Below the pieces are notes generated by a model. That model did not search any database. It was not told where the DNA came from and saw nothing but the letters and a program-made list of their open reading frames with translations. The translations under genes were made by a program, and so were the position numbers. 64,000 nt of DNA from contig JAAXIC010000017.1 in the NCBI GenBank assembly GCA_012270555.1, positions 62,001 through 126,000 on the forward strand. The letters are read 5' to 3'. The stretch comes from Chloroflexota bacterium (GTDB lineage: Bacteria > Chloroflexota > UBA11872 > VXOZ01). Of this stretch, positions 33,359 through 56,841 are shown in pieces (within the stretch, counting starts at the first letter, position 1; each line of letters starts with the position of its first letter).

Positions 33359-34555
33359 GTGAAGTACCTTCAGCGCGCCTTAAGCATCCTAGTATTTGCT
33401 GTCCTTGTCCTTGCCGCTCTTTCTCCGGCCCTGAGAGTGCAGGCGGAGGTAACGCTGCCTCACGGTACTGTCGTTTCTCTGCAAGGCACTCCGCACCTAT
33501 GGTTTGTGGATGCAGAAGGCATCCTGCATTGGGGCGGCGACACACGGGCCCTGGCGGGGCGTCACATAGACTGGAACAAGCGGGTTGCAGCCAGTTTAGA
33601 AGAGCTCCAGGCCTTGGATATCGGCGATCCATGGCTTTCCACTGGACTGCTGAAAGATGGCGATCCAATCTATCTGGTTAAGTGGGAAGCGGAGTGGATG
33701 GAACCTCAGTTACTGCACATTCAGTCTTTGAGCGATGTCGAGTTGTTTGGTATAGACAGCAGCAACTATGGGGATTTCGTGCACGACATACCGACATGGG
33801 AAGCCGAATACGGGCTCTCAGTGAGCGATCTTGAGCGGTCTCCGTTGGAACCGGCCACGACGCCCGGTGATTCCACTCCAAGTTCAACCCCAGGAACGCC
33901 ATTGACGAGGGAGGCCGTGCTGCAACGCTTAGCTGCACTGGTCACCGACGACGATGACGACGATGATGACGACGACGCTACCGACACTGCGACTGCCACA
34001 GCTACGGCAACGGGGAGCCAAACCGCCACCGCAACCGCGACGGCGACAGACGACGGCACATCCACTACTCAAACGGCCACGGACGACACACCGGACAACC
34101 AGAATACGCTCACGGCTACAGCCACCGACACTGCCACGGCAACTGGCGATCAAACGGCCACGGCAACGGCGACGGCGACCGACGATGGCTTGTCCGCAAC
34201 TGCCACGGCAACAGACGATACTCCGGTCAATCAAGTCTCGGGCACGGGCACTGCCACAGACACCGCGACCGCTACCGGGACCGGCGACCAAACGGCTACG
34301 GCTACCGCCACAGCGACCGACGACGGCGCATCTGCGACGCAAACGAGCACGGATGACACCCCTGACGCACAGAACGTGCCTACGGCCACTGCCACTGCTA
34401 CCGCAACAGCGACAGCGACGGGCGAGCAAACGGCGACAGATACCGCCACCGCTACAGACGACGGCACGTCAGTGACGGTCACCGCAACCGATCCCACGGA
34501 CAGCACCCCCCTTGACACTGGCTCGGATGAAGATAGCGATGACGATAGCGACTAG
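33359..34555 (+). CDS. Secreted Thr/Ala/Asp repeat protein
   Basis: This 398-residue protein is of unknown function. A Sec signal peptide (about 1-29, cleavage after VQA) is followed by a roughly 150-residue folded region with short motifs such as HLWFVDAEGILHWGG and LLKDGDPIYLVKW. A Ser/Thr/Pro linker, a run of ten Asp (197-206) and about 190 residues of Thr/Ala-rich repeats come next. Four units beginning GSQ/GDQ/GDQ/GEQ at about 219, 263, 309 and 355 (period 44-46) each contain TATATATATDDG and TDDTP-type segments. The C-terminus is acidic, with no membrane anchor or sortase signal. The composition suggests an extracellular, probably calcium-binding or O-glycosylated stalk. Confidence 0.85.
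   Translation: MKYLQRALSILVFAVLVLAALSPALRVQAEVTLPHGTVVSLQGTPHLWFVDAEGILHWGGDTRALAGRHIDWNKRVAASLEELQALDIGDPWLSTGLLKDGDPIYLVKWEAEWMEPQLLHIQSLSDVELFGIDSSNYGDFVHDIPTWEAEYGLSVSDLERSPLEPATTPGDSTPSSTPGTPLTREAVLQRLAALVTDDDDDDDDDDATDTATATATATGSQTATATATATDDGTSTTQTATDDTPDNQNTLTATATDTATATGDQTATATATATDDGLSATATATDDTPVNQVSGTGTATDTATATGTGDQTATATATATDDGASATQTSTDDTPDAQNVPTATATATATATATGEQTATDTATATDDGTSVTVTATDPTDSTPLDTGSDEDSDDDSD
34013..34480 (+). repeat. Coding tandem repeat (four units of about 132-138 bp)
   Basis: Within the secreted protein gene, four imperfect direct repeats of about 132-138 bases encode alternating Thr-Ala stretches with DDG and DDTP-type acidic elements. The triplet-like ACNGCN composition makes the region prone to slippage. 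Confidence 0.75.
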
Positions 34556-36796: not shown

Positions 36797-38161
36797 ATGA
36801 GAGATCGTATTCTGCGACGAACCTTTCTCGGCGGCGTTGGCGCTACCGCAGCAGGAGCATTGTTTGTAGCTTGCGGCCAGGCGGCGCCCATGGAAACGGC
36901 AGAGGCGCCCCAGGAAGAAGAGGCGCCGCAAGAAGAGGAAGCACAGCCCGCTGCGGCGGAGGCCGTTGAGCTTGAAGTGTGGACAACCCGGCGCTGGGAC
37001 CTTTCCCAGGGCTTGGGGTTGGAGGTCAAGCAGGAGATCGAGGCCTTGGTGGAAGGTCTCACCGTCAAGGATCTCATTCCGGAAGGCAACCGCTTTACCA
37101 TCTTGATTGCGGCGCAAGCGGCAGGCACGTCGCCGGATATTGGCCAAGTTGGCGTCTGGCAGAACCAGCAGGTGGCGGCCGGCGGCATCGTCGACAGCTT
37201 GGAGAGCTACTACGCCCAGTCTCCGGTTATCAATAAGGACGACATCTGGCCGTCCTTGCGCATCGACATGGACCACAAAGGCCAGGTGTGGAGCATGCCG
37301 TTTGGCCCGGACGTGCGCTTCTTCTACATCCACGACAATCTCTATCTGGACGCGGGCCTTGACCCGGAGAACCCGCCCGTGACGTGGACGGACTTGGAGG
37401 ACGTAATTTCCAAGTCATTCAAGGGCGGCAATACGATTGAGCAGGTGGCGTGGGGGCCGTTGTGGGCCAACCGTCACGTGTGGATGGTGCCGATGTGGCA
37501 GCTCGGCGGTGAGAATATCAACGCCGATGCTACGAAGATCACGCTGAACACCGAGGAAGGCCGCGAGGGCATGGCGTGGCTGAAGAAGGTGCACGACATG
37601 CAGGGCGGCTACGACGCGCTGCAAGAATTCAAGGGCGATGAGAACGCCCGCGCGCACTTCTATGCCAGCCGTCTCGCCAATCTCTATGACACTGGCTCCA
37701 TCCGGTTTGAGAGCATTGCCCAGGAAGCGCCGGACCTTGAGTACCACTGGGGTCACTGGCCCAAGCCGGCGGACGGGTTCAACCGCACGTACGGCGGCTG
37801 CCATACGTGGGTGCTGCCCGTGGGCGCAACCCACAAAGATGTAGCCTGGACGTTCATGGAGCACTTCGGCGATGATAGCGTCAACATCCGCTGGGCCAAG
37901 CACTTCGACCGGCTGCCGATCCGGGTCGACACGTCGTACAGTGAGGCCTACCACGGCGGCGATCCATTCGTCATCCATCAGGTTGACGTCATGGAAGGGC
38001 GTCGTTTTGTGGTCTCGGCCCCCGGCGCCAACGAGATGCTCGGCATCATGAGCGGTGGCGTGCCGGATATGCTTACCGGCAAGACCACCATCGAGGAAGG
38101 CTTGCGCAATACTGAGGCTCAGGCGCAGGCGGTGCTCGACGAGTGGCTGGCACGGGAATAG
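36797..38161 (+). CDS. ABC-transporter solute-binding lipoprotein (extracellular solute-binding family 1-like)
   Basis: The 454-residue product carries a Tat-like signal (RRTFLGGVGATAAGALFVAC) with the lipobox Cys at residue 27. A Glu/Pro/Ala-rich linker (EAPQEEEAPQEEEAQP) of about 25 residues connects to a large substrate-binding domain (VELEVWTTRRWDLSQ onward, SMPFGPDVRFFYIHDN). This is the plan of family 1 sugar-binding proteins. No permease or ATPase genes lie beside it, so it is an orphan here or works with a transporter encoded elsewhere. The ligand is unknown; the context suggests a component taken up for the following DUF3604 block. Confidence 0.87.
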   Translation: MRDRILRRTFLGGVGATAAGALFVACGQAAPMETAEAPQEEEAPQEEEAQPAAAEAVELEVWTTRRWDLSQGLGLEVKQEIEALVEGLTVKDLIPEGNRFTILIAAQAAGTSPDIGQVGVWQNQQVAAGGIVDSLESYYAQSPVINKDDIWPSLRIDMDHKGQVWSMPFGPDVRFFYIHDNLYLDAGLDPENPPVTWTDLEDVISKSFKGGNTIEQVAWGPLWANRHVWMVPMWQLGGENINADATKITLNTEEGREGMAWLKKVHDMQGGYDALQEFKGDENARAHFYASRLANLYDTGSIRFESIAQEAPDLEYHWGHWPKPADGFNRTYGGCHTWVLPVGATHKDVAWTFMEHFGDDSVNIRWAKHFDRLPIRVDTSYSEAYHGGDPFVIHQVDVMEGRRFVVSAPGANEMLGIMSGGVPDMLTGKTTIEEGLRNTEAQAQAVLDEWLARE

Positions 38162-38373: not shown

Positions 38374-39924
38374 GTGAGCAGGCAAGAATTCGATCCGAAC
38401 CTCATCCGTTTGCCGCTGGACTACAAAGGCACGCCGGAACTGGCGGAGATCCGCGTGAATGTGCCCAGCATCGTACCGCCGGATGCGAGCAACGGTGAAT
38501 TCAAGATCGGCCTAGAGCTACGGGACCAATGGGGTTTTCACCTGCCCAAACAGAGTGCCCACTTGGAGTTGTCCATAGAGGGAGCAAACGGTGAGGTCCC
38601 CGCAGAAGTGCCAATGCTGCCGGAGTACGACAGCCACTACGCTGTACGCGGTCACGTTGTGGAGAAAGATCGGGTCTTTCGCGTGCGTGCGCGGGACCGC
38701 GAGACTGGTATCGAGGCCCTCAGCAATCCCGCCTGGGCGCCGGCCTACATGTACGGCGGCGACCACAAGCTGTACTGGGGCGACTTGCACTGCCACCGGT
38801 TGGAAAAACCCAGCCGCAAGCGCAGCGATCCGCTGCTCTGGAGCTACGGGCCCGCGACCGTGGACGAGGTGTACCGCTTTGCGCGGGACGTGGTGCACCT
38901 GGACTTCACGGCGCTCACCGACCATGACTACGCCCTGAGCACTGACGAATGGCGCGAGATTCAGGAGGGAGCGGAGTTCTACAACCAGCCGGAGCGCTTC
39001 GTGACGCTGCTCGGCTACGAGTGGTCGTGGAATCGCGGGCCGGACGCCGACTGCGGCCACCGCAACGTGATTTTCCGCCACGGCGACATGCCGCTCATTT
39101 CCAGTAATTGGAAGGGGTCCAACACGCCGCAGGATCTCTTCAACATCTTTCGCCGCATCTCCCGCACCGGCTGCGACATCCTCTCGATTCCCCATCACCC
39201 GGCGCGTCTGGGGAACCGCATTTGGCACAATTGGGAGTCCATGGACCCGGAATTCGAGCGCCTCATGGAGGTCTATAGCCACTGGGGCAGCAGCGAGCAC
39301 GAGGGGGAGCCGTATGCACTCAAAGCTCGCAACGAGCGCACCCAGTGGGAAGAGCCTTACGCGGAGTACCCACCCTATGAGGCCACCGGCCACTTCCTGC
39401 AGGACGGGCTGCGCCAGGGCTTTCGCTTTGGATTCGTGGGCGGCAGTGAGAGTCACGATGGCCGCGTCACCAGCAGCGTGCAGATCGCCCACCTGCCCAT
39501 CAAATCCACGACATTCAACCACCACGCTGGCATGACGGGCGTTTGGGCGCGCCGCCGCGAGCGGGATGCCGTATTCAGTTCGCTCTGGCAACGCCGCGCC
39601 ATCGGCACGACCGGTGTGCGCATTTATCTCGATTTCGACGTGGACAACCAGCCCATGGGCGAAATCATCAGCGTGCAGTTTCCACCAAAAGAAATGCGTG
39701 TGCGCGTCCACGGTACGGCGCCGCTTGCCAAAGTAGTAGTGGTCAAGAACAATCAGGACTGGCACGTATCGGAGAATCCCGGCTGGGAGTGCGTCCTTTC
39801 GCTGAATGAGATTGAGATGCCACAAGACCGCACAGACTGGTACTACGTGCGCGCAACGCAGGAAGATGGCGAGATGGCATGGTCGAGTCCCATTTGGATC
39901 GAGGACGCCCGCCGTGTCTTCTAG
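38374..39924 (+). CDS. DUF3604 protein with intact metal motifs
   Basis: The 516-residue protein begins with a beta-rich region of about 120 residues. A PHP-like metal-dependent hydrolase domain follows, with WGDLHCH (135-141) and ALTDHDYALS (180-189). Further motifs are LGYEWSW, GHRNVIF, LSIPHHPARLG and GGSESHDGR, then WQRRAIGTTGVRIYL near the C-terminus. It has no signal peptide. The GTG start at 38374 lies downstream of AAGG. DUF3604 proteins are found across marine bacteria; their reaction is not established. The two genes that follow are relatives whose metal site differs. Confidence 0.88.
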   Translation: MSRQEFDPNLIRLPLDYKGTPELAEIRVNVPSIVPPDASNGEFKIGLELRDQWGFHLPKQSAHLELSIEGANGEVPAEVPMLPEYDSHYAVRGHVVEKDRVFRVRARDRETGIEALSNPAWAPAYMYGGDHKLYWGDLHCHRLEKPSRKRSDPLLWSYGPATVDEVYRFARDVVHLDFTALTDHDYALSTDEWREIQEGAEFYNQPERFVTLLGYEWSWNRGPDADCGHRNVIFRHGDMPLISSNWKGSNTPQDLFNIFRRISRTGCDILSIPHHPARLGNRIWHNWESMDPEFERLMEVYSHWGSSEHEGEPYALKARNERTQWEEPYAEYPPYEATGHFLQDGLRQGFRFGFVGGSESHDGRVTSSVQIAHLPIKSTTFNHHAGMTGVWARRRERDAVFSSLWQRRAIGTTGVRIYLDFDVDNQPMGEIISVQFPPKEMRVRVHGTAPLAKVVVVKNNQDWHVSENPGWECVLSLNEIEMPQDRTDWYYVRATQEDGEMAWSSPIWIEDARRVF

Positions 39925-40022
39925 ACGTCCAATGGTTGGGACGTGGGATTGTAACGCGGTACTGTAAATCTGGGTGCCCGCCGCGTGTCATTGCCAGTGG
40001 CTGGGAAAGAGGAGTGCAGCCC

Positions 40023-41846
40023 ATGCTCGTGGAAGAGAGTGAACGGTTCCGGGTACGTGTAGACGGCCTGTCGCGCGTTGCTGAGACGGTCACGCTTGAA
40101 TTGCACTACACACCGCCTGCGGGCGGCCTGCAGACAGATGGGAATCTTTGGTTCTTCTTTGACATCCGGCAATTTGAAACATGGGTGCTGCCCTTGGATT
40201 CGCCGGAAGCGGTTACGGTGCGCGGGCCGGCGGGGTCAACCTGGCAAGCCGAGGCCCTCCTTGGCGGCGGTGTGGTGCGCACGTTCGATATCCACTATCC
40301 GATACCTGAGTTTCTCCACGTGGTGCACGTGAAGTGCGTTGCGGGTGCTTTGGTAGCGAGAGACTGGCTAGCGGTGCAACTGCGCACAGTCCCCGGTGGC
40401 TTCCTGCTGCCTCGCAACGCCATTGATAACTTCCGATTTTGGCTGGTTGAGGACCCTCGTGGAGAGCTTACGTTCTACTTACCGGAACGAGATAAGCACC
40501 ACTACTTTCTGCCGCGCGATGCAGAACTATCATTGCTGGCGAGCAACCCAATCGCGATCGAGGCTGCCGGTCCGGCGGCCCTGCACGTATCCGTGCCCTC
40601 GCACACCACGGGACAGGTGACCGCGCGCGCCGTGGTCACTGATAGATTCGGCAATCCTGTGCGCGATGCCAAAGGAGATGTCACCTTGCGTTCGAGCAGT
40701 GGCACGACAACGGCCGCGCTCAATACGTCTAGCGCCACAGGGACGATTGCCGTAAGGGGGCCTGTGGATAGCGTCACGGCGTCATATCAGGGCATCGAGG
40801 CAAGGAGCAATCCTGTGCGCGTTGCAGCAGAGCCGCCGCCGTACGCACTCTATTGGGGAGACCCTCACGGCATGCTCTTCAACCAACGTCCTATTGTCGA
40901 GCATTTCGCTTGGGGCAAAGACGTGAATCACCTTGACTTTGCCGGAGGCCAGCTATTCTCCTACAGCATTGCCATCAAAGAGGTGTGGGAGGATCTCCAG
41001 GACGCGTGGCAGAAATATGATCTGCCCGGCGAATTTGTGGCGCTGCCTTCAGCGGAGTTTGGGACATTGCCCGACGGCAGTCACCGCCACGGCTTCTTCC
41101 CGGAGATTGCGGGACAGCCGCCGGTTTTCTGTGAAGACCGTCCCGGCGCGCATGACCCCAAGCTCCACGCACGCTATCATCCCGATACCGTCTTTTGCCA
41201 AGACTATCAGGAGTTCTATCGCGAGATGAAGCGCCGCGGCGCCCTAATGCACGGTCACTTTCATACGCACTTCTATGCTGAAGAACACTTGGCGGAGATC
41301 TATCAGAAACAGCGTACCGATGGCGTCGTGGAAGAGGAGAAGATCAACCAACACCTGATGCGCGGCGTGAAGCTGGGCATCGTGGGCGGGAGCGACACCC
41401 ATGACAGCCGGCCTGCCAATCCCTATCCGGAGCCCATCCCGGAGGGTTCCAGCGGACTGACGGGGGTATGGGCGGAGCGGCTGGATAGACCTTCCATCTT
41501 CGACGCGTTCTTCAAGCGGCGCTGCTATGCCACCTCCGGGGTGCGCATCATCGTAGATTTCCGCGTTAACGGCAATTGGATGGGTTCCACAGTGCGTGAC
41601 GATGCCTTCACGTTCACAGCGGAAGTGGTAGGTACGGATGACATCGCGCAGATCGATCTGGTAATAAACGGCGATACGGCCGCGAGTTACACGCCGCTTC
41701 AACGGCACGTACAGATGGAAGATGTGGTATCGCTGCGGTTCTCTCCTGTCAATGCCCACTACTGCTACTTGCGTGTACGCCAGTGTGACGGCAATCGCGC
41801 GTGGACGAGCCCAATTTGGCTTGAAGCAGCGAACCACGCTGTCTAG
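40023..41846 (+). CDS. DUF3604 paralogue with altered metal motif (A)
   Basis: The 607-residue protein has a beta-rich N-terminal half. Part of it resembles a bacterial Ig-like repeat (TGQVTARAVVTDRFGNP, about 197-212). The C-terminal half is a DUF3604 domain, in which WGDLHCH becomes WGDPHGM (278-284) and the TDHD motif is lost (LDFAGGQLFSYS). New His-rich elements appear (HGHFHTHF at 410-417, SHRHGFFP). GGSDTHDSRP and CYATSGVRIIVDF are kept. The start is the ATG at 40023, 9 bases after AGAGGAG; the frame is open further upstream with no support. The next gene is a close copy. Confidence 0.87.
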   Translation: MLVEESERFRVRVDGLSRVAETVTLELHYTPPAGGLQTDGNLWFFFDIRQFETWVLPLDSPEAVTVRGPAGSTWQAEALLGGGVVRTFDIHYPIPEFLHVVHVKCVAGALVARDWLAVQLRTVPGGFLLPRNAIDNFRFWLVEDPRGELTFYLPERDKHHYFLPRDAELSLLASNPIAIEAAGPAALHVSVPSHTTGQVTARAVVTDRFGNPVRDAKGDVTLRSSSGTTTAALNTSSATGTIAVRGPVDSVTASYQGIEARSNPVRVAAEPPPYALYWGDPHGMLFNQRPIVEHFAWGKDVNHLDFAGGQLFSYSIAIKEVWEDLQDAWQKYDLPGEFVALPSAEFGTLPDGSHRHGFFPEIAGQPPVFCEDRPGAHDPKLHARYHPDTVFCQDYQEFYREMKRRGALMHGHFHTHFYAEEHLAEIYQKQRTDGVVEEEKINQHLMRGVKLGIVGGSDTHDSRPANPYPEPIPEGSSGLTGVWAERLDRPSIFDAFFKRRCYATSGVRIIVDFRVNGNWMGSTVRDDAFTFTAEVVGTDDIAQIDLVINGDTAASYTPLQRHVQMEDVVSLRFSPVNAHYCYLRVRQCDGNRAWTSPIWLEAANHAV

Positions 41847-41964
41847 ATTCACGCGTCAGGTCCGTGGAGCAGACACAAGAGCGCAAACGCCTTCATCGCA
41901 TTGGTGGCTTAGTCGTACACGAATGTGACAACTGTTTGCAATCAGACGTTAAGTCGGTCTGTCT

Positions 41965-41972
41965 GCTATGAT
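41965..41972 (+). promoter_or_regulatory. Possible extended -10 promoter upstream of DUF3604 paralogue B
   Basis: TGCTATGAT forms an extended -10 element about 65-70 bases before the ATG of the second duplicated DUF3604 gene. No good -35 lies at the right distance. It is suggestive only and would mean that the two duplicates are transcribed separately. Confidence 0.3.
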
Positions 41973-42042
41973 ACGATACCGTCAAGCTGTGGCGTTTAGT
42001 TTTGGGCTATATAACCGCTATGACGAAAGGGTGCGATGAGCC

Positions 42043-43854
42043 ATGTCTGCAAATGCCGGTGGAAGATTTCACGTCAGCGTAGAAGGGCCGCTGAGAGTTG
42101 CAGAGACGGTGGCGCTAACGTTGCACTACTCGCCGCCGGCGGGCGGGCTCCAGACCGGCGGCAATCTCTGGGTCTTCTACGACATCCGGCAGTTTGGCGA
42201 TCGTCAACATATGTACGGGGCAGATGGCGTTGGTGTGAGCGGGCCCGCCGGAACAGCCTGGGAAGCCCGGGCGCTGATGGACGGCCGCCAGGTGCGTACG
42301 TTCGATATCCATCCCCCCGCGCCTGAATTCCTCCACGCAGTGCATGTGCAATGTGTGAGCGGCAGCATAGCGGAAGGTGAACGCGTTGCGATTGAACTGC
42401 GGACTGCTCCCGACGGCTTTCTGCTGCCCGTGAACGCCATCGATGCCTTTCGCTTTTGGTTGGTGGAAGACGCTGCGGGCAAACTCAGCTTCTATCATCC
42501 GGAGCGAGACAAGTACCACTATTTCCTGCCGCGTGAGGCTGAACTCTCGGTCTTGGAAAGCAACGCGCTTACGATAACGGCTGCCGAACCGTCTGTGCTG
42601 CAAGTAACCACGCCCTCACACGCATCGGGACAGGCGGCAACACGGGTGGTGGTCACCGATCGGTTCGGCAATCCCGTGCACGATGCAAAGGGTAACGTGT
42701 CTTTACGAACCGGCAGCGGCGAGATTTCTGTCGCGCTCAACTCGTACAGCACGGAGGGAACGATGCCGCTGCAAGGGTCAACCGCTAGCGTGACGGCTAC
42801 GTATCAGGGCATCGAGGCAGAGAGTAACCCGGTGCGGGTAGATGCAGATACTTCCCCATTTACGCTCTATTGGGGAGACCCCCACGGCATGCTCTTCAAC
42901 CAACGTCCCATCGTCGAGCACTTCGCCTGGGGCAAAGACGTGAACGCCCTGGACTTTGCCGGCGGCCAACTTTTTTCATACAGCATTTGCATTGGCGAAA
43001 TCTGGGACGAGTTGCAGGAGGCGTGGGCAAAGTATGACCTGCCGGGCGAGTTCGTCGCTTTGCCCTCGGCGGAGTTTGCCACGGGCCCCGATGGCAGCCA
43101 CCGCCACGGCTTCTTTCCGGCGCCGGAGGGCCAGCCGCCGGTCTTTTGTGAAGACCGTCCTGCCGCTAACGATCCCAAGCTTCATGCCCGGTATCACCCA
43201 GATACCGTCTTCTGTCGCGACTATCAGGAGTTCTACCGCGAGATGAAGCGCCGGGGCGCGCTCATCCACGGCCACTTCCATACGCACTTCTACGTGCAGG
43301 AACACCTGGCGGAGATCTACCAAAAGCAGCAGACCGACGGGGTTACTGAGGAAGAAAAAATCAACCAGTTCTTGATGCGGGGCGCGAAGCTCGGCATCGT
43401 CAGCGGCAGCGATACCCATGACAACCGGCCCGCCAATCCCTACAAAGAGCCGGGGCCGTCCGGCCCCGCCGGACTGACGGGCGTGTGGGCGGAACGGCTC
43501 GACCGTCCGTCGATCTTCGAGGCGTTGTTCAACCGGCGCTGCTACGCTACCACCGGCGTGCGCATCATCGTGGACTTCCGCGTGAACGGCGCGTGGGTGG
43601 GGTCCACAGTACGGGCAGACCGGTTCGCGTTTGCGGCGGACGTGGTCGGCACGGCGGACATCGCACAGATCGATCTAGTGGTCAATGGCGACACGGCCAG
43701 TAGCTACACACCCAAGCGACAACACGTTCAGTTGGCAGACGACGTGCCCCTGCGGTTCTCTCCGGTTGGCGCCAATTACTGCTACCTGCGCATACGCCAG
43801 GAGGATGGTAACCGCGCGTGGACGAGCCCGATCTGGTTGGAGCCGCTGCTTTAG
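42043..43854 (+). CDS. DUF3604 paralogue with altered metal motif (B)
   Basis: This 603-residue protein is a close tandem paralogue of the 40023-41846 gene. It shares the beta-rich N-terminal half and the motifs WGDPHGM (about 277-283), SHRHGFFP, HGHFHTHF, GGAKLGIVSGSDTHD-type and CYATTGVRIIVDF. Both copies have lost the second His of the HxH pair and the TDHD motif, so the altered site predates the duplication. The ATG at 42043 follows AAAGGG. Upstream lies a 196-base gap with a possible promoter. Transcription from the first copy may also continue through it. Confidence 0.87.
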   Translation: MSANAGGRFHVSVEGPLRVAETVALTLHYSPPAGGLQTGGNLWVFYDIRQFGDRQHMYGADGVGVSGPAGTAWEARALMDGRQVRTFDIHPPAPEFLHAVHVQCVSGSIAEGERVAIELRTAPDGFLLPVNAIDAFRFWLVEDAAGKLSFYHPERDKYHYFLPREAELSVLESNALTITAAEPSVLQVTTPSHASGQAATRVVVTDRFGNPVHDAKGNVSLRTGSGEISVALNSYSTEGTMPLQGSTASVTATYQGIEAESNPVRVDADTSPFTLYWGDPHGMLFNQRPIVEHFAWGKDVNALDFAGGQLFSYSICIGEIWDELQEAWAKYDLPGEFVALPSAEFATGPDGSHRHGFFPAPEGQPPVFCEDRPAANDPKLHARYHPDTVFCRDYQEFYREMKRRGALIHGHFHTHFYVQEHLAEIYQKQQTDGVTEEEKINQFLMRGAKLGIVSGSDTHDNRPANPYKEPGPSGPAGLTGVWAERLDRPSIFEALFNRRCYATTGVRIIVDFRVNGAWVGSTVRADRFAFAADVVGTADIAQIDLVVNGDTASSYTPKRQHVQLADDVPLRFSPVGANYCYLRIRQEDGNRAWTSPIWLEPLL

Positions 43855-44059: not shown

Positions 44060-45169
44060 ATGGCTGACTTCGCACGCATAACGCAATCCATGTCCGAGCA
44101 GCGGCTCGAAGCCCTGATCACCCTCGGCATGCGCAATTGCGCCTATCTGGCCGGGACCATCAGCGAGGGTCCGTGGCTCAACGAACCGCAGGGCCTTGCG
44201 CCCTGGATGGCATGTCTGATTCCTCCCGATCGATCGTTTGCATTCGGTGGTATTCCCAAAGAAGCTGGCATACCGGTGGCGGGTTTCGCGCCCGACCACT
44301 CGCGGGCGGCGCGTCTAATAGAGCTTGCAAAACAGATGCGCCAGCGGAGCTTGGCACGGGCGCGCATCGGTTTGGACATGGACTTTGCGTCGGCAAGCGA
44401 CCTGGAGCGGCTGCAAGAGCTTTTGCCGGAGGCGACGTTTGTTTCCGCCGACCTGCTGCTTGCAAAAGCGCGGGCGTCCAAGACGCCGCAGGAATTAAAC
44501 TGGCTCCGCAAGGCGATTGCGGCTTCTGAAGCCGGCTACCGAGAAATGCTCAAGGAAGTCAAGGTAGGCATCTCGTTCCAAGACCTCGTCACGGTGTGGG
44601 CGAAAGCCGTGTTGGACAATGGCGCCTTGCCGATCAACACGTCGCCGGTGTCGTGGATGCTGCCCCACGGCGGCACAAGCCTGCGCGACCAGCCCAATGC
44701 GGCGGTCATTCGCGGACCTGGCATAGTGGAAGCTGGGCTTGTGTACCGCGTCGATCTTGCCGCCATATCGGGTGGCTACTTTTCTGATCAGAAGTTCAAC
44801 TTCAGCGTGGGCACGCCACGCAAAGAGAGCCTAGCCGTATGGCAGGAACACCGGGAGCGACAGCTCTTCATGGAGGAGTTTGTACGTCCAGGCAAGACCA
44901 AACGTGAGGTGTTCGAGGCGTGCCAGCGTGAATTTAAGGATACCGATGAGTACGCCTGGTGGATTCACGGCGTTGGTATGGACAAGCACGAGGAACCGTT
45001 GATCGGCAGCCTATTGCCCGCGGCCGTCGACGTCAGGCCGGAAATCACGTTTGCGGAAGGCAATGTGGTCTCGCTAGAGTCCTCGTGGCTTGAGGAGGAC
45101 ATGTACGTGCTTAGGCAAGATGGGTTTGAAAGGCTGGGGACGATACCGCAAGAAGTGGCGATTGTGTGA
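44060..45169 (+). CDS. M24-family metallopeptidase-like protein (Xaa-Pro peptidase/creatinase fold)
   Basis: The 369-residue protein has the pita-bread fold. The N-terminal creatinase-like domain occupies about 1-150. In the C-terminal domain the metal ligands of aminopeptidase P are visible: two Asp in VDLAAISGGYFSDQKF, His in WIHGVGMDKHEEP and two Glu in the AEGNVVSLESSWLEEDMY region. Creatinase itself lacks metal, so retention of the ligands favours a metallopeptidase. The ATG follows GAGAGGGAG. Context: downstream of the DUF3604 pair and upstream of a subtilase-like gene. The substrate, an Xaa-Pro peptide or other amide, is open. Confidence 0.85.
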   Translation: MADFARITQSMSEQRLEALITLGMRNCAYLAGTISEGPWLNEPQGLAPWMACLIPPDRSFAFGGIPKEAGIPVAGFAPDHSRAARLIELAKQMRQRSLARARIGLDMDFASASDLERLQELLPEATFVSADLLLAKARASKTPQELNWLRKAIAASEAGYREMLKEVKVGISFQDLVTVWAKAVLDNGALPINTSPVSWMLPHGGTSLRDQPNAAVIRGPGIVEAGLVYRVDLAAISGGYFSDQKFNFSVGTPRKESLAVWQEHRERQLFMEEFVRPGKTKREVFEACQREFKDTDEYAWWIHGVGMDKHEEPLIGSLLPAAVDVRPEITFAEGNVVSLESSWLEEDMYVLRQDGFERLGTIPQEVAIV

Positions 45170-45223: not shown

Positions 45224-45336
45224 GGGAGGTTGTCACTCCTCGGGCTAGTGTCGCCCTTACGAGAGGAAGCGATTTCACCAAAGTTCGCCAATACTATAGA
45301 TCAACCAGATAATAAGAGCTACGAAAGGGAAAACCT

Positions 45337-46677
45337 ATGGCCATTGCAGAGAAGCAGAGCGGCGTGCTGCCGGAGGGTGTGCGTGAGCCCTATGATTGGG
45401 CGCTGGATCAAATGCGGATACCGGAAGCCCATGCCATTACGCAAGGCAGTCCCGATGTCATTGTGGCGGTGATCGATCTCGGCTACCGCTTCCATCCCGA
45501 CCATGAGGGCCATCTATGGGTTAACCCGCGTCCCACGCGGGGTGACATCCATGGCTGGGACTTCGCGGAGGAAGACGCCACGCTTGAGTACGAGGGGATG
45601 CGCTCAGATGCCACCTACCAGCGCGGGCACCACGCGTTCGTCGTCGGGGAAGTGGCGGTAACGGCGCCCAAGTGTCCCATCATGGTCCTGCGTGTGGGCT
45701 ACGAGCCCCACCATCAGAAGAGCTGGCCGCGCGCCATACGCTACGCGGTCGACCACGGCGCTAAGGTGCTGATCATGCCCCACGGGTATATCACGCTGGA
45801 CCATACCGACGGCGTGCCATTGTTCTATAAGGGTACGGACTTCAATTATCCCTACGACAACATCGGCTTGATCGAGGCCATGGACTACGCCTACCAGTCG
45901 GGTTCCCTGATCTTCAAGGGGACGGCGGACAATCGCGGGCGGCGGGTGGCCACCGTGAATGCCGGCCTGGATAGTGTCTTCGCTGTCGGCTCGACGAACC
46001 GGCATGGCCGGGCGGCGAACATTGCGGCGTCGGCGGACTATGCGGAAGCGGCCACGCCCGGCGGCGAACGCCATACGGATGACCCGACTGATTCGATTTG
46101 GGGCACCGGCGGCGACCACGACTACATTCCTTTTCAGGGCGGATGCATGGCGTCCGCCTTTGGCGGCGGCGTCGCGGCGCTGGCGTTTTCCCAGTACCCA
46201 CACCTCTCAAATCGCGAAATCCGGGAGATTCTGCGCAATACGTCCCAGGGAACCGGCTGGGATCCATTGCTCGGCCACGGTATTTTCGATGCCTACCGGG
46301 CGGTTTCGCTGAAGCCGGAGGAACTTTCGCCTGGCCTACGCATCGATCGGGAAGCTTCGCAGGTGCGGCACGAAAACGGACAGCTAGTGGCGGAGATTGT
46401 TGTTGAGAACACCGGCGTCTACGACGTTTCCCGCATGCTAACGGTTGCCTTCAATGGCGATCCGAAAACTGCCCCCGATTCCGGTGGTACCCGGGAGGAA
46501 GCGAACATCCTTATCCGACGGCAAATCGGACATTGCATTGCGGTGGCGACGGGTCTCGAGCGGGTGCGCGTGTCCTTGGAGTTGGACGGTGATGCACAAT
46601 CCGATGAGGTCTGGGTGCAGGTCAACCCGCTGGACCTCGGCATGGCGGGGGTCTACGATTCAGCACGGATATTCTAA
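45337..46677 (+). CDS. Subtilisin-like protease fold (S8) with Cys in place of the catalytic Ser
   Basis: The 446-residue protein has a subtilase-like core. It shows Asp47 in VIVAVIDLGYRFHPDH, His98 in YQRGHHAFVVGEVA and Asn199 in KGTADNRGRR. The Ser motif GTSMAxP is replaced by GGCMASAFGGG with Cys270. A jelly-roll-like C-terminal domain (about 320-446) follows. There is no signal peptide, so the protein is cytoplasmic or exported by an unusual route. A Ser to Cys substitution usually cripples subtilases, although a cysteine-dependent activity is possible. The gene is downstream of the M24 gene and may share its transcript (gap 167 bases). Confidence 0.85.
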   Translation: MAIAEKQSGVLPEGVREPYDWALDQMRIPEAHAITQGSPDVIVAVIDLGYRFHPDHEGHLWVNPRPTRGDIHGWDFAEEDATLEYEGMRSDATYQRGHHAFVVGEVAVTAPKCPIMVLRVGYEPHHQKSWPRAIRYAVDHGAKVLIMPHGYITLDHTDGVPLFYKGTDFNYPYDNIGLIEAMDYAYQSGSLIFKGTADNRGRRVATVNAGLDSVFAVGSTNRHGRAANIAASADYAEAATPGGERHTDDPTDSIWGTGGDHDYIPFQGGCMASAFGGGVAALAFSQYPHLSNREIREILRNTSQGTGWDPLLGHGIFDAYRAVSLKPEELSPGLRIDREASQVRHENGQLVAEIVVENTGVYDVSRMLTVAFNGDPKTAPDSGGTREEANILIRRQIGHCIAVATGLERVRVSLELDGDAQSDEVWVQVNPLDLGMAGVYDSARIF

Positions 46678-46868: not shown

Positions 46869-46988
46869 TACCGGAGTGATTACGTCTAGAACTGTCTATT
46901 GCACGGCATCGGCAGAGAAGCTTTATAGGGCTCCCACTTGCGGCTTGCTGATTAGGTGACCCGTAGTTCGTGGGGTGAATGGGAACAT

Positions 46989-48011
46989 ATGCGTATCACA
47001 TCCGTAGAGGTAGTCCCGTGGAAAGACGACGCCTCGTTCGTCTACTCAGTGGTCTTTGACGAAGGAACCGTCGATTGCCTGGCAAATGCCTTCCCGCTTG
47101 GGAAGCAATATGACATTCCCGGTGACGTCGCGGTTGTAGCCGGACAGCTGGGCGAGAAGCGCCACGTCGAGCGCAGTTCGCTCAATGACTACTTCCACAT
47201 GGGGCCGGAGCACTTGAAGTTTCTCCTCTCCCAGGGCTGGAGCGTGAGCAATCACAGCTATTCGCATCCGCCTCTGCGGGATCCGAGCAGCATTGACTAC
47301 GAACAAGAGATCGTGGAGTCCTACCACGTGCTGGAGCGCGCGCTCGGGCAGCCGGCGCCGGTGTTCTCCTCATGGAATAGCTTTGAGGTATATGACACGG
47401 TGCGGGCATGGGTGGAGCGCACGCCGGGCTATCTTGCTCTGACACGCGCGTCCAACGATGCCGAGCACATCAATGAGCCGGACTTCGACCCCTTCAGCAT
47501 TTGGCGCAACCGTCTTTCTGAGGATGACGAGATAGAATTTCTGCCGCCGTGGCTCTCGCGCGCCGGGTTCGAGCCGGCGCGCGTGCACGGCAAGTGGTTG
47601 GTCGACGTCACGCACCTGGTTATGTACAAGACGCCGCAGGGGCACAAGTGTATTTCGCCTTATGCGTTGGAAGGTCGATTCGACCAGATGCGCACGCACT
47701 TTGGCGACAGCATGTGGGCCGCTAATCCCGATGACGTGGTGCGCTACCGGTACCTGCGCCGTCATTGCTTGCCCACCATAGAGCAGGAATCAGATTCTCG
47801 CGCCACCATCACGTTGAGATTCCCAGAGTTGCCGCCGCAGATTGAGGAAGGCGAGTTGACGTTCCTTGTCTCGCTTGCGGATGACCATGGCCCGGTGAAA
47901 GCGAGCGGGCCTAATGGCACCATTGATGTCGTGCTGGCTGGAGAGCGGCGGCTGCGGTTTACATCCCGGGTGTCTGACGAAACACAGATTTTACTTACGA
48001 GCGGCAGTTAG
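46989..48011 (+). CDS. Polysaccharide deacetylase (NodB)-like protein
   Basis: The 340-residue protein has NodB-like features. VVFDEGTVD (21-29) matches the catalytic/metal Asp motif (normally FDDG), and NHSYSHP (88-94) supplies the HxxxH metal histidines. The N-terminal half should form the deformed barrel. The C-terminal half (VDVTHLVMYKT, RATITLRFPELPPQI) is beta-rich. The start ATG at 46989 has GGGAAC just before it; the frame opens 33 bases earlier. The substitution of Glu for the second Asp may affect metal binding. Substrate and cellular site are unclear, as there is no signal peptide. Confidence 0.72.
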   Translation: MRITSVEVVPWKDDASFVYSVVFDEGTVDCLANAFPLGKQYDIPGDVAVVAGQLGEKRHVERSSLNDYFHMGPEHLKFLLSQGWSVSNHSYSHPPLRDPSSIDYEQEIVESYHVLERALGQPAPVFSSWNSFEVYDTVRAWVERTPGYLALTRASNDAEHINEPDFDPFSIWRNRLSEDDEIEFLPPWLSRAGFEPARVHGKWLVDVTHLVMYKTPQGHKCISPYALEGRFDQMRTHFGDSMWAANPDDVVRYRYLRRHCLPTIEQESDSRATITLRFPELPPQIEEGELTFLVSLADDHGPVKASGPNGTIDVVLAGERRLRFTSRVSDETQILLTSGS

Positions 48012-52285: not shown

Positions 52286-53029
52286 ATGTTTGGTTGGCGC
52301 GGACGCATTGGTTTGCTCGTTCCGTCGGTGAATACGGTAGTGGAGCCGGAAGGCTGCGCGCTGCTGCCGGACGGTTACGCCGTCTACGCGACGCGCATGC
52401 GCAATTCTCGCTCGGACGCCGACGACATGGCGCAGATGTGCGCGCACGTGGACCGTGGGGTAGATGAGCTGCTCAGCGCGAATGTGGATGCTATCGCATT
52501 TGCCTGTACTGCGGGCAGTTTCTTTGAAGGCGCCGACGGCGAAGAGGCGCTGCGCGAACGTTTGCGGGGCGGCAGCCAGATTGAGGCAGTGACTACTGCC
52601 GGCGCAGTTGCCGGGGCTTTGCGGTCTTTGGATGCGCAGCGCGTGGCCATGGTGACACCCTATATTCCTGAACTGAACGACCTGGAGGTCAAGTTTCTGC
52701 AGGATTGGGGTTTCGACGTGGTGAGCCAGGCCGGCATGAGCATTCTCACGGCGTTCGACATTGGTGTAGTTCCGCTTGAGGAAACCTATCGCTTTGCCCG
52801 CGAACACGCCGCCGCTGATGCCGATGCGCTCTTCATTAGCTGCACCAACCTCCGCACCATGGACGTAATCCAGGCGCTCGAAGAGGACTTGGGCATACCG
52901 GTAGTGACGAGCAATCAGGCCACCTACTGGCAGTGCCTACGCTCTTTGGGGCATACAGCGGCGATACCCGGCTATGGCAGGCTGTTCGAACTGCTTCCCG
53001 CGGCCCGGCCCGTGCCTGTGACCGTCTAG
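52286..53029 (+). CDS. Maleate cis-trans isomerase / Asp-Glu racemase superfamily protein
   Basis: The 247-residue protein matches maleate isomerase and arylmalonate decarboxylase-like members of the Asp/Glu racemase superfamily. The two catalytic cysteines are in AFACTAGSFF and ISCTNLRTMD. PSVNTVVEPE near the start is the carboxylate-binding segment. The GGAGGT ribosome site lies 7 bases before the ATG. It starts an operon with hyuA-like (3-base gap) and hyuB-like genes. In that setting it may equally be a hydantoin racemase-like enzyme. Relation of substrate to hydantoins or maleate is undetermined. Confidence 0.87.
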   Translation: MFGWRGRIGLLVPSVNTVVEPEGCALLPDGYAVYATRMRNSRSDADDMAQMCAHVDRGVDELLSANVDAIAFACTAGSFFEGADGEEALRERLRGGSQIEAVTTAGAVAGALRSLDAQRVAMVTPYIPELNDLEVKFLQDWGFDVVSQAGMSILTAFDIGVVPLEETYRFAREHAAADADALFISCTNLRTMDVIQALEEDLGIPVVTSNQATYWQCLRSLGHTAAIPGYGRLFELLPAARPVPVTV

Positions 53030-53032
53030 GCG

Positions 53033-55126
53033 ATGCCTGTGGACTCATCTTTGCGCGTCGGTGTCGATATCGGCGGTACCTTCACCGACCTCGTCTTCAT
53101 GGATTCCCAGGGGCTGCGGGCGTGGACTAAGGTGTCTTCAACCGCCGCTGACTTTGCCCAGGGCATTGTCCAGGGCCTTGACGCGCTCATTCGCGAAACG
53201 GAATCCGAGAGCGCGGACATTTGTGAAGTTATTCACGCGACCACCGTAGCGACCAACGCCATCCTGGAGGGCAGGGGCGCGCTCACGGGTCTTATCACGA
53301 CGGCGGGCTTTCGCGACGTGCTGGAGATCCGGCGCTTGCGCATGCCGCGTCTCTACGACCTGCACTGGGAACCCCCGAAACCGCTGGTGCCGCGTGCGCT
53401 GCGGCGCGAGGTTGACGAGCGTGTCGACACGGACGGCGACGTGGTGCGCGCATTGGATGAGGAGAGTGTTCACGCGGCGATAGCGCACTTGCTGGACGCG
53501 AGCGTACGTTCGATTGCGGTTTGCCTCATCAACGCCTATCGCAATCCCGATCACGAAGAACGCATTGGCGCGTTGCTTCACGCGGCCGCGCCGGACGTTT
53601 TCGTTTCCCTTTCGTCCCACGTGCTGCCTGAAATTCGCGAGTACGAGCGGACAAGCACCACGGTGATCAATGCGTACATCGCGCCGGTGATGCGCTCGTA
53701 TCTCAATCGCCTCCACGACTCTCTCGACGAGCGGCGCATTACCGCCCCCGTGTACATGATGCAGTCCGCCGGCGGCATGATGGGCGCCGCCAAGGCGGCG
53801 GAACAGCCGATTCACGTGATCGAGTCCGGGCCTGCCGCGGGCGTAATGGGGGCGCTTTCGCTGGCCAACGCCATGAATGCGGCAAATGTGATCACCCTCG
53901 ATATGGGCGGCACGACGGCGAAAGCCTCGGTGATTGAAGATAGCCGCATTACTCGTACCAATGACTACGAGGTGGGCGGCGGCATCAGTCTCAGCGCGCG
54001 GCTGCAACGGGGCGCGGGCTACGCGCTGCGGGTGCCGGCCATAGATATCGCGGAAGTCGGCGCAGGTGGCGGCAGCATCGCGTGGATCGACCCGGCCGGC
54101 GGGCTCCGTGTCGGACCCCATAGCGCGGGCGCTGAACCCGGTCCGGTGTGCTACGCGCTGGGTGGTGAAGAGCCGACGCTCACCGATGCCAACGTCGCGC
54201 TTGGGTACTTGAATCAGACACACTTCCTCGGCGGAGAATTGCCCATAGATGCCGACCATGCACGCGCGAACTTGAGTAAAAAACTGGCTACTCCCCTTGA
54301 CCTCAGTATTGAAGATACGGCTCTCGGCATTCATCGCATTGCGGTGTCGCACATGAGCCGCGCCGTACGGGCGGTCACGGTGGAACGCGGGCGCTCGCCC
54401 GCGGATTTTGTGCTGTTTGCGTTTGGCGGCAGCGGGCCGCTGCATGCCGCCGAAATGGCGCAGGAGCTTGGCGTGGGGCAGGTCGTCGTACCGCCGTTTC
54501 CGGGGCTTTTCAGTTCACTGGGTCTGCTCTGCGTGGACGTGGCGCAGCACGCGGTGCAAACGGTATTGCTGCCGCTTGACACGGTGAGTGAAGAAGAGAT
54601 CAATCAACATTACCAAGCGCTGGAGTCGCGTTTGTCTGCCGAGTTGGGAGCGAGCGGCGCGGCGCGGCAGGACGGCGATTGGCAGCGATTTGCTGATCTG
54701 CGCTACGCCGGTCAGTCTTTCGAGCTTACCGTACCTTTCGAGGAATCTAAGCCGGCAGTGATGCGGCAGGCTTTTGAGAGGGAGCACGAGCGCACGTACG
54801 GACACAAGGCCCCTGACGACCCCGTGGAACTCGTAAACCTGCGTGTGGAGGTGACGCTGCCGCGTGAAGGCGCGCACCGCTGGGGCAGCACTGCTACCAG
54901 AAAGGGAATGCTTGACGGTCCGAAAGAGCGGACAGCGTATTTCGGCGCCGCAAGCGGCCAGCGCACAGTGCCGCTGCTCGCGCGCCATGAACTAGAGACG
55001 ATTGATCGACCCGGTCCGCTGATCATAGAGGAGTACGACACGACGATTCTGGTACCGCCCAATTGCACTGCGAAACGCGACGCGTGGGACAATGTGGTGA
55101 TCACCGTGGGAGAGGAGCGGACGTGA
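53033..55126 (+). CDS. Hydantoinase/oxoprolinase A subunit family protein
   Basis: The 697-residue protein is a HyuA/5-oxoprolinase N-type subunit of the actin-like ATPase fold. ATP-site motifs include RVGVDIGGTFTDLVFMD at the N-terminus, ATTVATNAILEGRG and ITLDMGGTTAKASVIED. Family enzymes use ATP to open hydantoins, N-methylhydantoin or 5-oxoproline rings together with the HyuB partner. Its last codon overlaps the GTG start of hyuB-like (GTGA). The ATG sits 3 bases after the maleate-isomerase-like gene. Confidence 0.92.
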   Translation: MPVDSSLRVGVDIGGTFTDLVFMDSQGLRAWTKVSSTAADFAQGIVQGLDALIRETESESADICEVIHATTVATNAILEGRGALTGLITTAGFRDVLEIRRLRMPRLYDLHWEPPKPLVPRALRREVDERVDTDGDVVRALDEESVHAAIAHLLDASVRSIAVCLINAYRNPDHEERIGALLHAAAPDVFVSLSSHVLPEIREYERTSTTVINAYIAPVMRSYLNRLHDSLDERRITAPVYMMQSAGGMMGAAKAAEQPIHVIESGPAAGVMGALSLANAMNAANVITLDMGGTTAKASVIEDSRITRTNDYEVGGGISLSARLQRGAGYALRVPAIDIAEVGAGGGSIAWIDPAGGLRVGPHSAGAEPGPVCYALGGEEPTLTDANVALGYLNQTHFLGGELPIDADHARANLSKKLATPLDLSIEDTALGIHRIAVSHMSRAVRAVTVERGRSPADFVLFAFGGSGPLHAAEMAQELGVGQVVVPPFPGLFSSLGLLCVDVAQHAVQTVLLPLDTVSEEEINQHYQALESRLSAELGASGAARQDGDWQRFADLRYAGQSFELTVPFEESKPAVMRQAFEREHERTYGHKAPDDPVELVNLRVEVTLPREGAHRWGSTATRKGMLDGPKERTAYFGAASGQRTVPLLARHELETIDRPGPLIIEEYDTTILVPPNCTAKRDAWDNVVITVGEERT

Positions 55127-56841
55127 GCCGAGAGTTCGATCCGGTAGAAACGGAAATTCTCAAGAACGCGCTGGAATCGCTGGTGGATGAGATGGCGATG
55201 ACGGTGCTTCGGACGGCGTATTCGAACAACCTCAAGAACAGCATGGACTTTTCCACGGCGCTCTGCCAGCCCAGCGGCGAGCTCATTGCCCAGGGATTGA
55301 CTCTCCCGCTGCATCTCGGTTCAGTGCCTCATGCTATGGAAAGCATTTTCGCGACGTTCGGCGGCGACGTGCAGCCGGGCGACATCTACATGCTCAACGA
55401 TCCGTACGCCGGTGGTACGCACTTGCCGGACATCTATATCTTCAAGCCCGTATTCTTGGAGGGCGAACTTGCGTGTTTCTTGGTATCAATTGCCCATCAC
55501 GCCGACGTGGGCGGCATGGTGGCAGGCGGCAACGGCTGTGACGCTACCGAAATCTTCCAGGAGGGCATCCGCATTCCGCCGCTCAAGCTCTACGCCGCCG
55601 GCGAACCGAACGAAGCCGTCTTTGAGCTCATGCGCGCGAATGTGCGCGTGCCGCGCCTCGTGCTGGGCGATATTCGCGCGCAACTTTCCGCCTGCCACGT
55701 GGGCGAGCGACGTGTGGCGACTCTCTTTGCGCGCTACGGACACGAGGATCTGCAGGCGCGGTTTTCCGCGCTACTCGACTACACGGAACGGCTGGCGCGG
55801 CAGGCTATTGCCGATCTGCCCGATGGTGAATACGCGTTCACCGACTACATTGACGACGACGGTTTTGATCCGGGACCAATACCCATTGCCGTCACCGTGA
55901 AGGTGCACGGGGATTCGATGACGGTGGATTTTGCCGGCACGTCGCCCCAGGTGCGCGGCGGCATCAATTCACCAATACCGTTCACGCGCTCGGCGGTATA
56001 CGCCTGCGTGCGCAGTCTCATGGGAGAAGAAATCCCGAACAACGAAGGGTACTTCCGCCCGATCGAGGTGATTGCGCCCGAAAGCTCGGTTATCAATCCC
56101 AGCATGCCCGCGCCGGTGGCGGCGCGCGGCCTCACGGGTTACCGGACGGCAAATGCCGTGATGGGCGCTCTCGCCAAGCTGGCGCCGGAACGCATACCGG
56201 CGTGCGAGGTAGGCGGCGATACCGGCGTGAGCATTGGCGGCTACGACGATGACGGCAACCCGTTTGTCTACCTCGAATTCCTCTTTGGCTCGTGGGGAGG
56301 CAAGCCTTGGAGCGACGGTACCGACGCCATGGCGAGCATTGTCGTGAACTTCTCGAACAATCCGGTGGAGGTTGTGGAAGCCGAGTTGCCCTTGCGCATC
56401 GAGCGCTACGGCTATGTGCCGGATTCCGAAGGCGCGGGTAAGTATCGCGGTGGCCTGGCGTTGGTGCGCGACTACCGCCTGCGCGAGCAGCGCGCCACCT
56501 TACAGTTGCGTTCTGATCGACATAAGAGGCATGCATACGGTCTGGCGGGCGGCCACGACGGCGCGCCATCGCAAAACATCCTCAATCCAGATACGGAAGC
56601 GCGCGTGCTTACGAGTAAGGCCACTGAGACGATATTTGAGGACGACCTGTTCCGGCACATGGTGTCAGGGGCCGGTGGCTGGGGCAATCCCCTGGAACGC
56701 GATCCGCAGCTTGTGCTGGATGACGTGCGCAATGAAAAGGTATCGCGTGAGCGGGCCCGGGAGGTCTACGGGGTCGTGGTAACTGCTGCGGGCGAGTTGG
56801 ACCCTGAAGCTACGGAACGTTGCCGAGCCGGAAGCGGCTGA
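55123..56841 (+). CDS. Hydantoinase/oxoprolinase B subunit family protein
   Basis: The 572-residue protein is the HyuB/acetone carboxylase beta-like partner. FDPVETEILKNALESLVDEM at the N-terminus, MLNDPYAGGTHLPDIYIFKP and VSIAHHADVGGMV with metal-binding His and Asp residues identify it. The start is GTG at 55123, which overlaps the hyuA stop by GTGA and follows GAGAGGAG. The complex would hydrolyse a cyclic imide/amide at the expense of ATP. The last 20 residues are variable. Confidence 0.92.
   Translation: MSREFDPVETEILKNALESLVDEMAMTVLRTAYSNNLKNSMDFSTALCQPSGELIAQGLTLPLHLGSVPHAMESIFATFGGDVQPGDIYMLNDPYAGGTHLPDIYIFKPVFLEGELACFLVSIAHHADVGGMVAGGNGCDATEIFQEGIRIPPLKLYAAGEPNEAVFELMRANVRVPRLVLGDIRAQLSACHVGERRVATLFARYGHEDLQARFSALLDYTERLARQAIADLPDGEYAFTDYIDDDGFDPGPIPIAVTVKVHGDSMTVDFAGTSPQVRGGINSPIPFTRSAVYACVRSLMGEEIPNNEGYFRPIEVIAPESSVINPSMPAPVAARGLTGYRTANAVMGALAKLAPERIPACEVGGDTGVSIGGYDDDGNPFVYLEFLFGSWGGKPWSDGTDAMASIVVNFSNNPVEVVEAELPLRIERYGYVPDSEGAGKYRGGLALVRDYRLREQRATLQLRSDRHKRHAYGLAGGHDGAPSQNILNPDTEARVLTSKATETIFEDDLFRHMVSGAGGWGNPLERDPQLVLDDVRNEKVSRERAREVYGVVVTAAGELDPEATERCRAGSG

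Follow-up and report, generated by a model that had tools for sequence, protein, structure and literature searches.

A Chloroflexota subtilase family with cysteine at the nucleophile position is a candidate natural thiol-subtilase

Can a protein of the subtilisin fold carry a cysteine nucleophile in nature and, if so, which chemistry would it perform? The question is raised by one gene in a 64,000-nucleotide stretch of a Chloroflexota genome (the window; contig JAAXIC010000017.1), in which translation of the open frame at 45337-46677 on the plus strand gives a 446-residue S8 subtilase with TGC where the serine codon of a subtilase is expected (Table 1). As far as the literature searched shows, cysteine-nucleophile subtilisins have so far been laboratory products. 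The original prediction had said that such enzymes are known only as engineered forms, and our search, of partial coverage, likewise gave just engineered or chemically made ones and found no natural Cys-nucleophile subtilase, an earlier mention of a natural Cys-type S8 protein being possible. If the assignment holds, the exchange that turns subtilisin into subtiligase is evolvable.

Table 1. Positions of the Cys-subtilase gene, its active-site codons and its neighbours (window coordinates)
Feature	Position	Strand	Basis
CehA/McbA-like (DUF3604) metallohydrolase	38374..39924	+	Pfam; NCBIfam score below cut-off
CehA/McbA-like (DUF3604) metallohydrolase	39879..41846	+	Pfam; NCBIfam score below cut-off
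CehA/McbA-like (DUF3604) metallohydrolase	42043..43854	+	Pfam; NCBIfam score below cut-off
M24 creatinase/prolidase-like peptidase, conserved upstream neighbour	44060..45169	+	Pfam, species comparison
Ribosome-binding-like stretch GAAAGGG, ATG 7 bases further on	45323..45329	+	read in sequence
Cys-subtilase gene, clade A of the candidate thiol-subtilase family, 446 aa	45337..46677	+	translation, PF00082, orthologues, AF2 model
Asp47 codon, matching Asp32 of subtilisin; the paralogues (clade B) have Glu	45475..45477	+	alignment
His98 codon, His64 of subtilisin; helix 98-109 starts here in the model	45628..45630	+	60-sequence alignment, AF2
Residues 99-110, site of the absent calcium-A loop (about 75-83 in subtilisin)	45631..45666	+	A2 alignment
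About 11-20 extra residues, around 150-172, past the S1-cleft strand	45784..45852	+	alignment, AF2 model
Asn199 codon, probable oxyanion Asn155	45931..45933	+	invariant in all Cys proteins
Cys270 codon TGC, equivalent of the Ser221 nucleophile in subtilisin	46144..46146	+	sequence, alignment
Ala274 codon, position 225, where normal subtilases have Pro and subtiligase has Ala	46156..46158	+	alignment
Mostly-beta domain at the C-terminus (about residues 327-446), without Pfam match	46315..46674	+	Pfam, AF2 model
Polysaccharide-deacetylase-like (CE4 fold), conserved downstream neighbour	46956..48011	+	Pfam, species comparison

The protein is a subtilase by several measures. PF00082 (Peptidase_S8) is its sole Pfam domain (residues 40-315, E=4.7e-14, 52.8 bits against a curated cut-off of 21.8 bits), and a phmmer search of the PDB with the protein as query matched thermitase and subtilisins. 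The structure prediction that had been proposed as a check gave an AF2 model (pLDDT 83.4, pTM 0.85) with a predicted subtilisin fold, in which, as in subtilisin, His98 and Gly269/Cys270 each mark the start of a helix. More specific identities were rejected: the NCBIfam models for mycosin and dentilisin score below cut-off (95.6 bits for the T7SS mycosin TIGR03921, whose equivalog cut-off is 278.75), and so was a role in a defence system, the protein having no PADLOC match and its paralogue matching just the generic subtilase model.

A sequencing error, or a recent Ser to Cys mutation in an ordinary subtilase, would be the simplest account of an isolated cysteine codon. The residue is not isolated. 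Within its genus, which belongs to a class with 41 genomes searched, the protein is present in 5 species, the other four copies being 86-96% identical to that of the window and all carrying Cys. The genome of the window (G000) holds two S8 genes only, both of Cys type, and no Ser-type subtilase was found in the whole genome; the second gene (G000:C9, L036:4866-6266, minus strand; SGGCMAIGHVSG) is about 33% identical to the first and founds what we call clade B, with orthologues in three further species (four in all), each with Cys. A profile search added a 52%-identical homologue with the motif SGGCMASGFAG from another Chloroflexota class (G447, L117:6990-8348, minus strand). All ten Cys genes use TGC, in assemblies of six species and two classes, and close homologues with Ser, which the original prediction had named as a possible refutation, were not found among them. 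Among 95 S8 domains compared, Ser stands at this site in 85 and Cys in these 10, and a tree that omits the nucleophile-motif columns groups the Cys proteins on a single branch (support 98/95), a grouping to be read with some caution as clade A sits on a long branch. Values of dN/dS among genus orthologues within each clade are mostly 0.05-0.09 (0.18 for a single, very closely related pair that shows few synonymous differences), from which the Cys-subtilases are judged to be kept by purifying selection. Because TGC recurs in all ten homologues and dN/dS is low, chance or error is excluded for Cys270; the ten genes of six species and two classes, the deep Cys clade and the purifying selection contradict error or recent mutation so strongly that we consider it highly improbable. 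Searches of several large Chloroflexota classes found no further Cys members; phyla beyond Chloroflexota were covered only by a peptide-pattern scan of genome contigs, and members may exist there. Viral contigs hold 12 S8 relatives and plasmids hold distant S8 matches; the viral and other Chloroflexota S8 domains alignable at the nucleophile site are Ser-type, the plasmid matches falling outside the alignment.

The residues around the cysteine are consistent with a catalytic site. The classic Ser nucleophile in GTSMA is absent and GGCMA is found in 10 of 10 Cys members; in the protein of the window the motif reads GGCMASAFGGG, or G219 G220 C221 M222 A223 S224 A225 F226 in subtilisin numbering. 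The placement of Asp47 and His98 at catalytic positions was borne out, Asp47 aligning with Asp32 and the His98 column, like that of Gly104, being invariant in an alignment of 60 sequences and aligned with the catalytic His of HGTH. A small first alignment had put His98 on the second HGTH His and Gln95 opposite the catalytic one; the larger alignment contradicts this, and position 95 is variable, so Gln95 was rejected as the His equivalent. Asn199, earlier assigned to the oxyanion hole, is invariant in all Cys proteins and probably fills this role. Both Cys clades have one residue more than canonical subtilases between the preceding helix and this Asn, and because of this length difference ahead of Asn199, Asp198 would be an alternative oxyanion-side residue in clade A, a less likely one. 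The possibility that a nearby serine is the true nucleophile was also dismissed, as Ser273 of GGCMAS is Ile in clade B. His, Asn and Cys are invariant, and the acid is Asp or Glu, across Cys clades that are only 32-34% identical.

Conservation of this kind bears on whether the fold is still an enzyme. A pseudoenzyme would use the fold to bind a ligand or a partner, with Cys270 in a structural, redox or ligand-binding role, after the manner of CspC-type subtilase pseudoproteases. Clade A offers grounds for this view: HGTH is altered to HHAF, the SLGG cleft strand is replaced, Thr220 is changed to Gly and the prodomain is absent. The changes to HGTH, SLGG and position 220 may indicate that function was lost or has become very different, and the Glu that replaces Asp32 in clade B also counts against activity. 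Subtilase pseudoproteases do exist, CspA and CspC having changes in two catalytic residues each and CspC carrying Gly485 for the nucleophile Ser and Thr170 for the His (PMC6636752). The Cys-subtilases share with CspC and CspA the fold and a changed nucleophile position, but whereas CspC lost both nucleophile and His, here the His and a nucleophilic residue are retained and the set of His, Asn, Cys and Asp/Glu is fixed across 32-34% identity. A pseudoprotease is recognised by catalytic residues lost without possible replacement; here Ser gives way to a possible nucleophile, Cys, and His and Asn are invariant. The Ala or Gly at position 225, the specific change that accompanies an active Cys221, argues in the same direction, and we regard a pseudoenzyme, the chief alternative to an active thiol-subtilase, as unlikely.

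That partner change goes beyond the original prediction, as do the missing calcium loop, the presence of a second family of Cys-subtilases and the conserved gene neighbourhood described below. Position 225 is Ala in 5 of the 10 Cys proteins (the genus orthologues) and Gly in the other 5 (the G447 homologue and the paralogues), states that are not ten independent events since the proteins share one origin; of 84 Ser-type domains, 79 have Pro here, 4 have Ala, 1 has Ser and none has Gly. Within the Cys proteins, the alignment indicates that the position shifts between Ala and Gly and never back to Pro. S221C with P225A is the published recipe that converts subtilisin into subtiligase. P225A relieves crowding by the sulfur and restores the activity of thiol-subtilisin (PMC7921005); a screen of active subtiligase mutants returned Ala at 225 with Gly as the only other residue tolerated (PMC9126251), and later peptiligase work found more residues acceptable there, Gly among them (PMC7921005).

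The likeness to subtiligase (subtilisin BPN' S221C/P225A) comprises Cys221, Ala/Gly225, the subtilisin fold and the retained Asp, His and Asn. The differences are as clear: subtiligase is engineered, secreted with a prodomain and calcium-dependent, and has Thr220 and HGTH, none of which holds for the clade A protein, which in turn has a cleft-side insertion and a C-terminal beta domain and for which ligase activity is predicted at most. The insertion is common to both Cys clades, the segment past the S1-cleft strand counting 40-43 residues against 23-29 in Ser-type homologues; Chloroflexota S8 subtilases (thermitase-like, with a Ser nucleophile) share with the protein the fold, the Asp, His and Asn positions and PF00082, and their segment is 11-20 residues shorter. 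In the model of the target the extra residues (about 150-172) form a low-confidence beta-hairpin.

Peptiligase and omniligase, calcium-loop-deleted S221C/P225A subtilisins, come closer in one respect. The loop deleted in peptiligase comprises residues 75-83, and clade A also lacks the calcium-A loop stretch, its His64-Pro86 span counting 14 residues against about 24 typically in the A2 alignment. The peptiligase parent is a subtilisin from which the calcium-binding loop was deleted (PMC7921005). Clade B retains the calcium-A loop region and a few Ser-type subtilases (L028, L097, L098) also do without it, so the loss is not specific to Cys proteins. In a Foldseek search of the PDB the peptiligase mutant 7am3 was the top match to the target model (TM 0.85 by target length), at only about 23% identity; ordinary subtilisins score almost equally, many at about 0.80-0.87 by target length. 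The top match to a peptiligase counts for an active thiol-subtilase, and its narrow margin over ordinary subtilisins counts against one. The model of the paralogue (pLDDT 83.1) resembles that of the target, with gliadinase Bga1903, Pro21717 and thermitase as its closest matches.

A secretion signal and a prodomain are typical of classic S8 serine peptidases, although not universal. The original prediction saw no signal peptide, and this stands: the open frame reaches just 7 codons upstream of the ATG, which leaves no room for one, and the N-terminus aligns with the start of mature subtilisin, so that a prodomain is missing too. The protein is predicted to be made in the cytoplasm without either.

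Because Cys, His and Asn are fixed at 32-34% identity, Asp or Glu is kept at position 32 and position 225 has changed, we favour an active thiol-subtilase, whichever its chemistry; it is the best-supported reading, and we hold it to be probable. In its more specific form, as a natural cytosolic thiol-subtilase with a Cys270-His98 pair assisted by Asp47 and oxyanion Asn199, sequence and model still make it fairly likely. Cys270 would attack a peptide, ester or amide carbonyl to give a thioester acyl-enzyme. More speculatively, the acyl group might then pass to an amine, in ligation, transpeptidation or cyclisation, rather than to water, since thioesters favour amines over water and the Cys proteins carry Ala or Gly at 225, as subtiligase does. 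Net ligase or transferase chemistry is possible but, on the alignments, somewhat unlikely, and a natural subtilisin-fold peptide ligase or transpeptidase, in which evolution would have found the subtiligase solution of a Cys nucleophile with Ala/Gly225 independently, is a shade more doubtful. If the active reading is right, the natural family would test which of ligation and thiol proteolysis follows from Cys with Ala/Gly, and it would be a possible source of new calcium-independent cytosolic peptide ligases. The nucleophile of PatG macrocyclase is Ser. PatG is described as a subtilisin-like enzyme of natural origin that both cuts peptides and makes them cyclic (PMC10043927). It differs from the target in having other inserts and in belonging to cyanobactin clusters, and no such cluster was noticed around the target.

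An active thiol-subtilase could also leave its thioester to water. It would then be a narrow-specificity cytosolic cysteine protease, amidase or esterase, and the loss of Pro225 would just make room for sulfur. Cysteine proteases are common in other natural folds; an unoptimised thiol-subtilisin is a poor protease, a point against activity of the target in general. Thiol-subtilisins made by engineering fall far short of the serine enzyme in activity (PMC7921005), a handicap that evolution could have solved. The active-site evidence for a thiol-subtilase serves this hydrolase as well, and its neighbours, mostly hydrolases (the M24 peptidase and the CehA/McbA-like genes, with an M14-like carboxypeptidase gene near the paralogue), point the same way; we take hydrolysis to be a minority possibility, but a real one.

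The neighbourhood is conserved. Across the species inspected closely, the order is CehA/McbA-like genes, M24 gene, Cys-subtilase and deacetylase-like gene. Neighbours in other species were identified from their length, their order and a reading of the sequence, and the Pfam scan covered only those of the window. The M24, CehA/McbA-like and CE4-like neighbours suggest small-molecule or peptide metabolism. A solute-binding protein gene lies further upstream (36797-38161), the paralogue is flanked by two such genes with the M14-like carboxypeptidase gene and a DsbD-like gene nearby, and close to the G447 copy lie genes for a creatininase and a SelA-like protein.

Several minor observations concern the genes around the locus. 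In the tandem of three DUF3604 genes (38374-43854) the second and third are close paralogues, and the gene number seems to depend on the species. Two species carry an extra endonuclease-like gene (NucS/DUF91-like by eye) between the CehA-like and M24 genes (L005:3335-4447, L040:4913-5989), which is absent from the window. An SPFH/Band-7 gene follows the deacetylase-like gene at L004:8781-9644; 287-aa genes of the same length occupy its place in L005 and L006, and the window and L040 have none. Elsewhere in the window, a 398-aa open reading frame with no Pfam match (33359-34555) adjoins a serine hydroxymethyltransferase gene, and an arylmalonate decarboxylase/Asp-Glu racemase-like gene precedes the genes for hydantoinase A and B (52286-56841).
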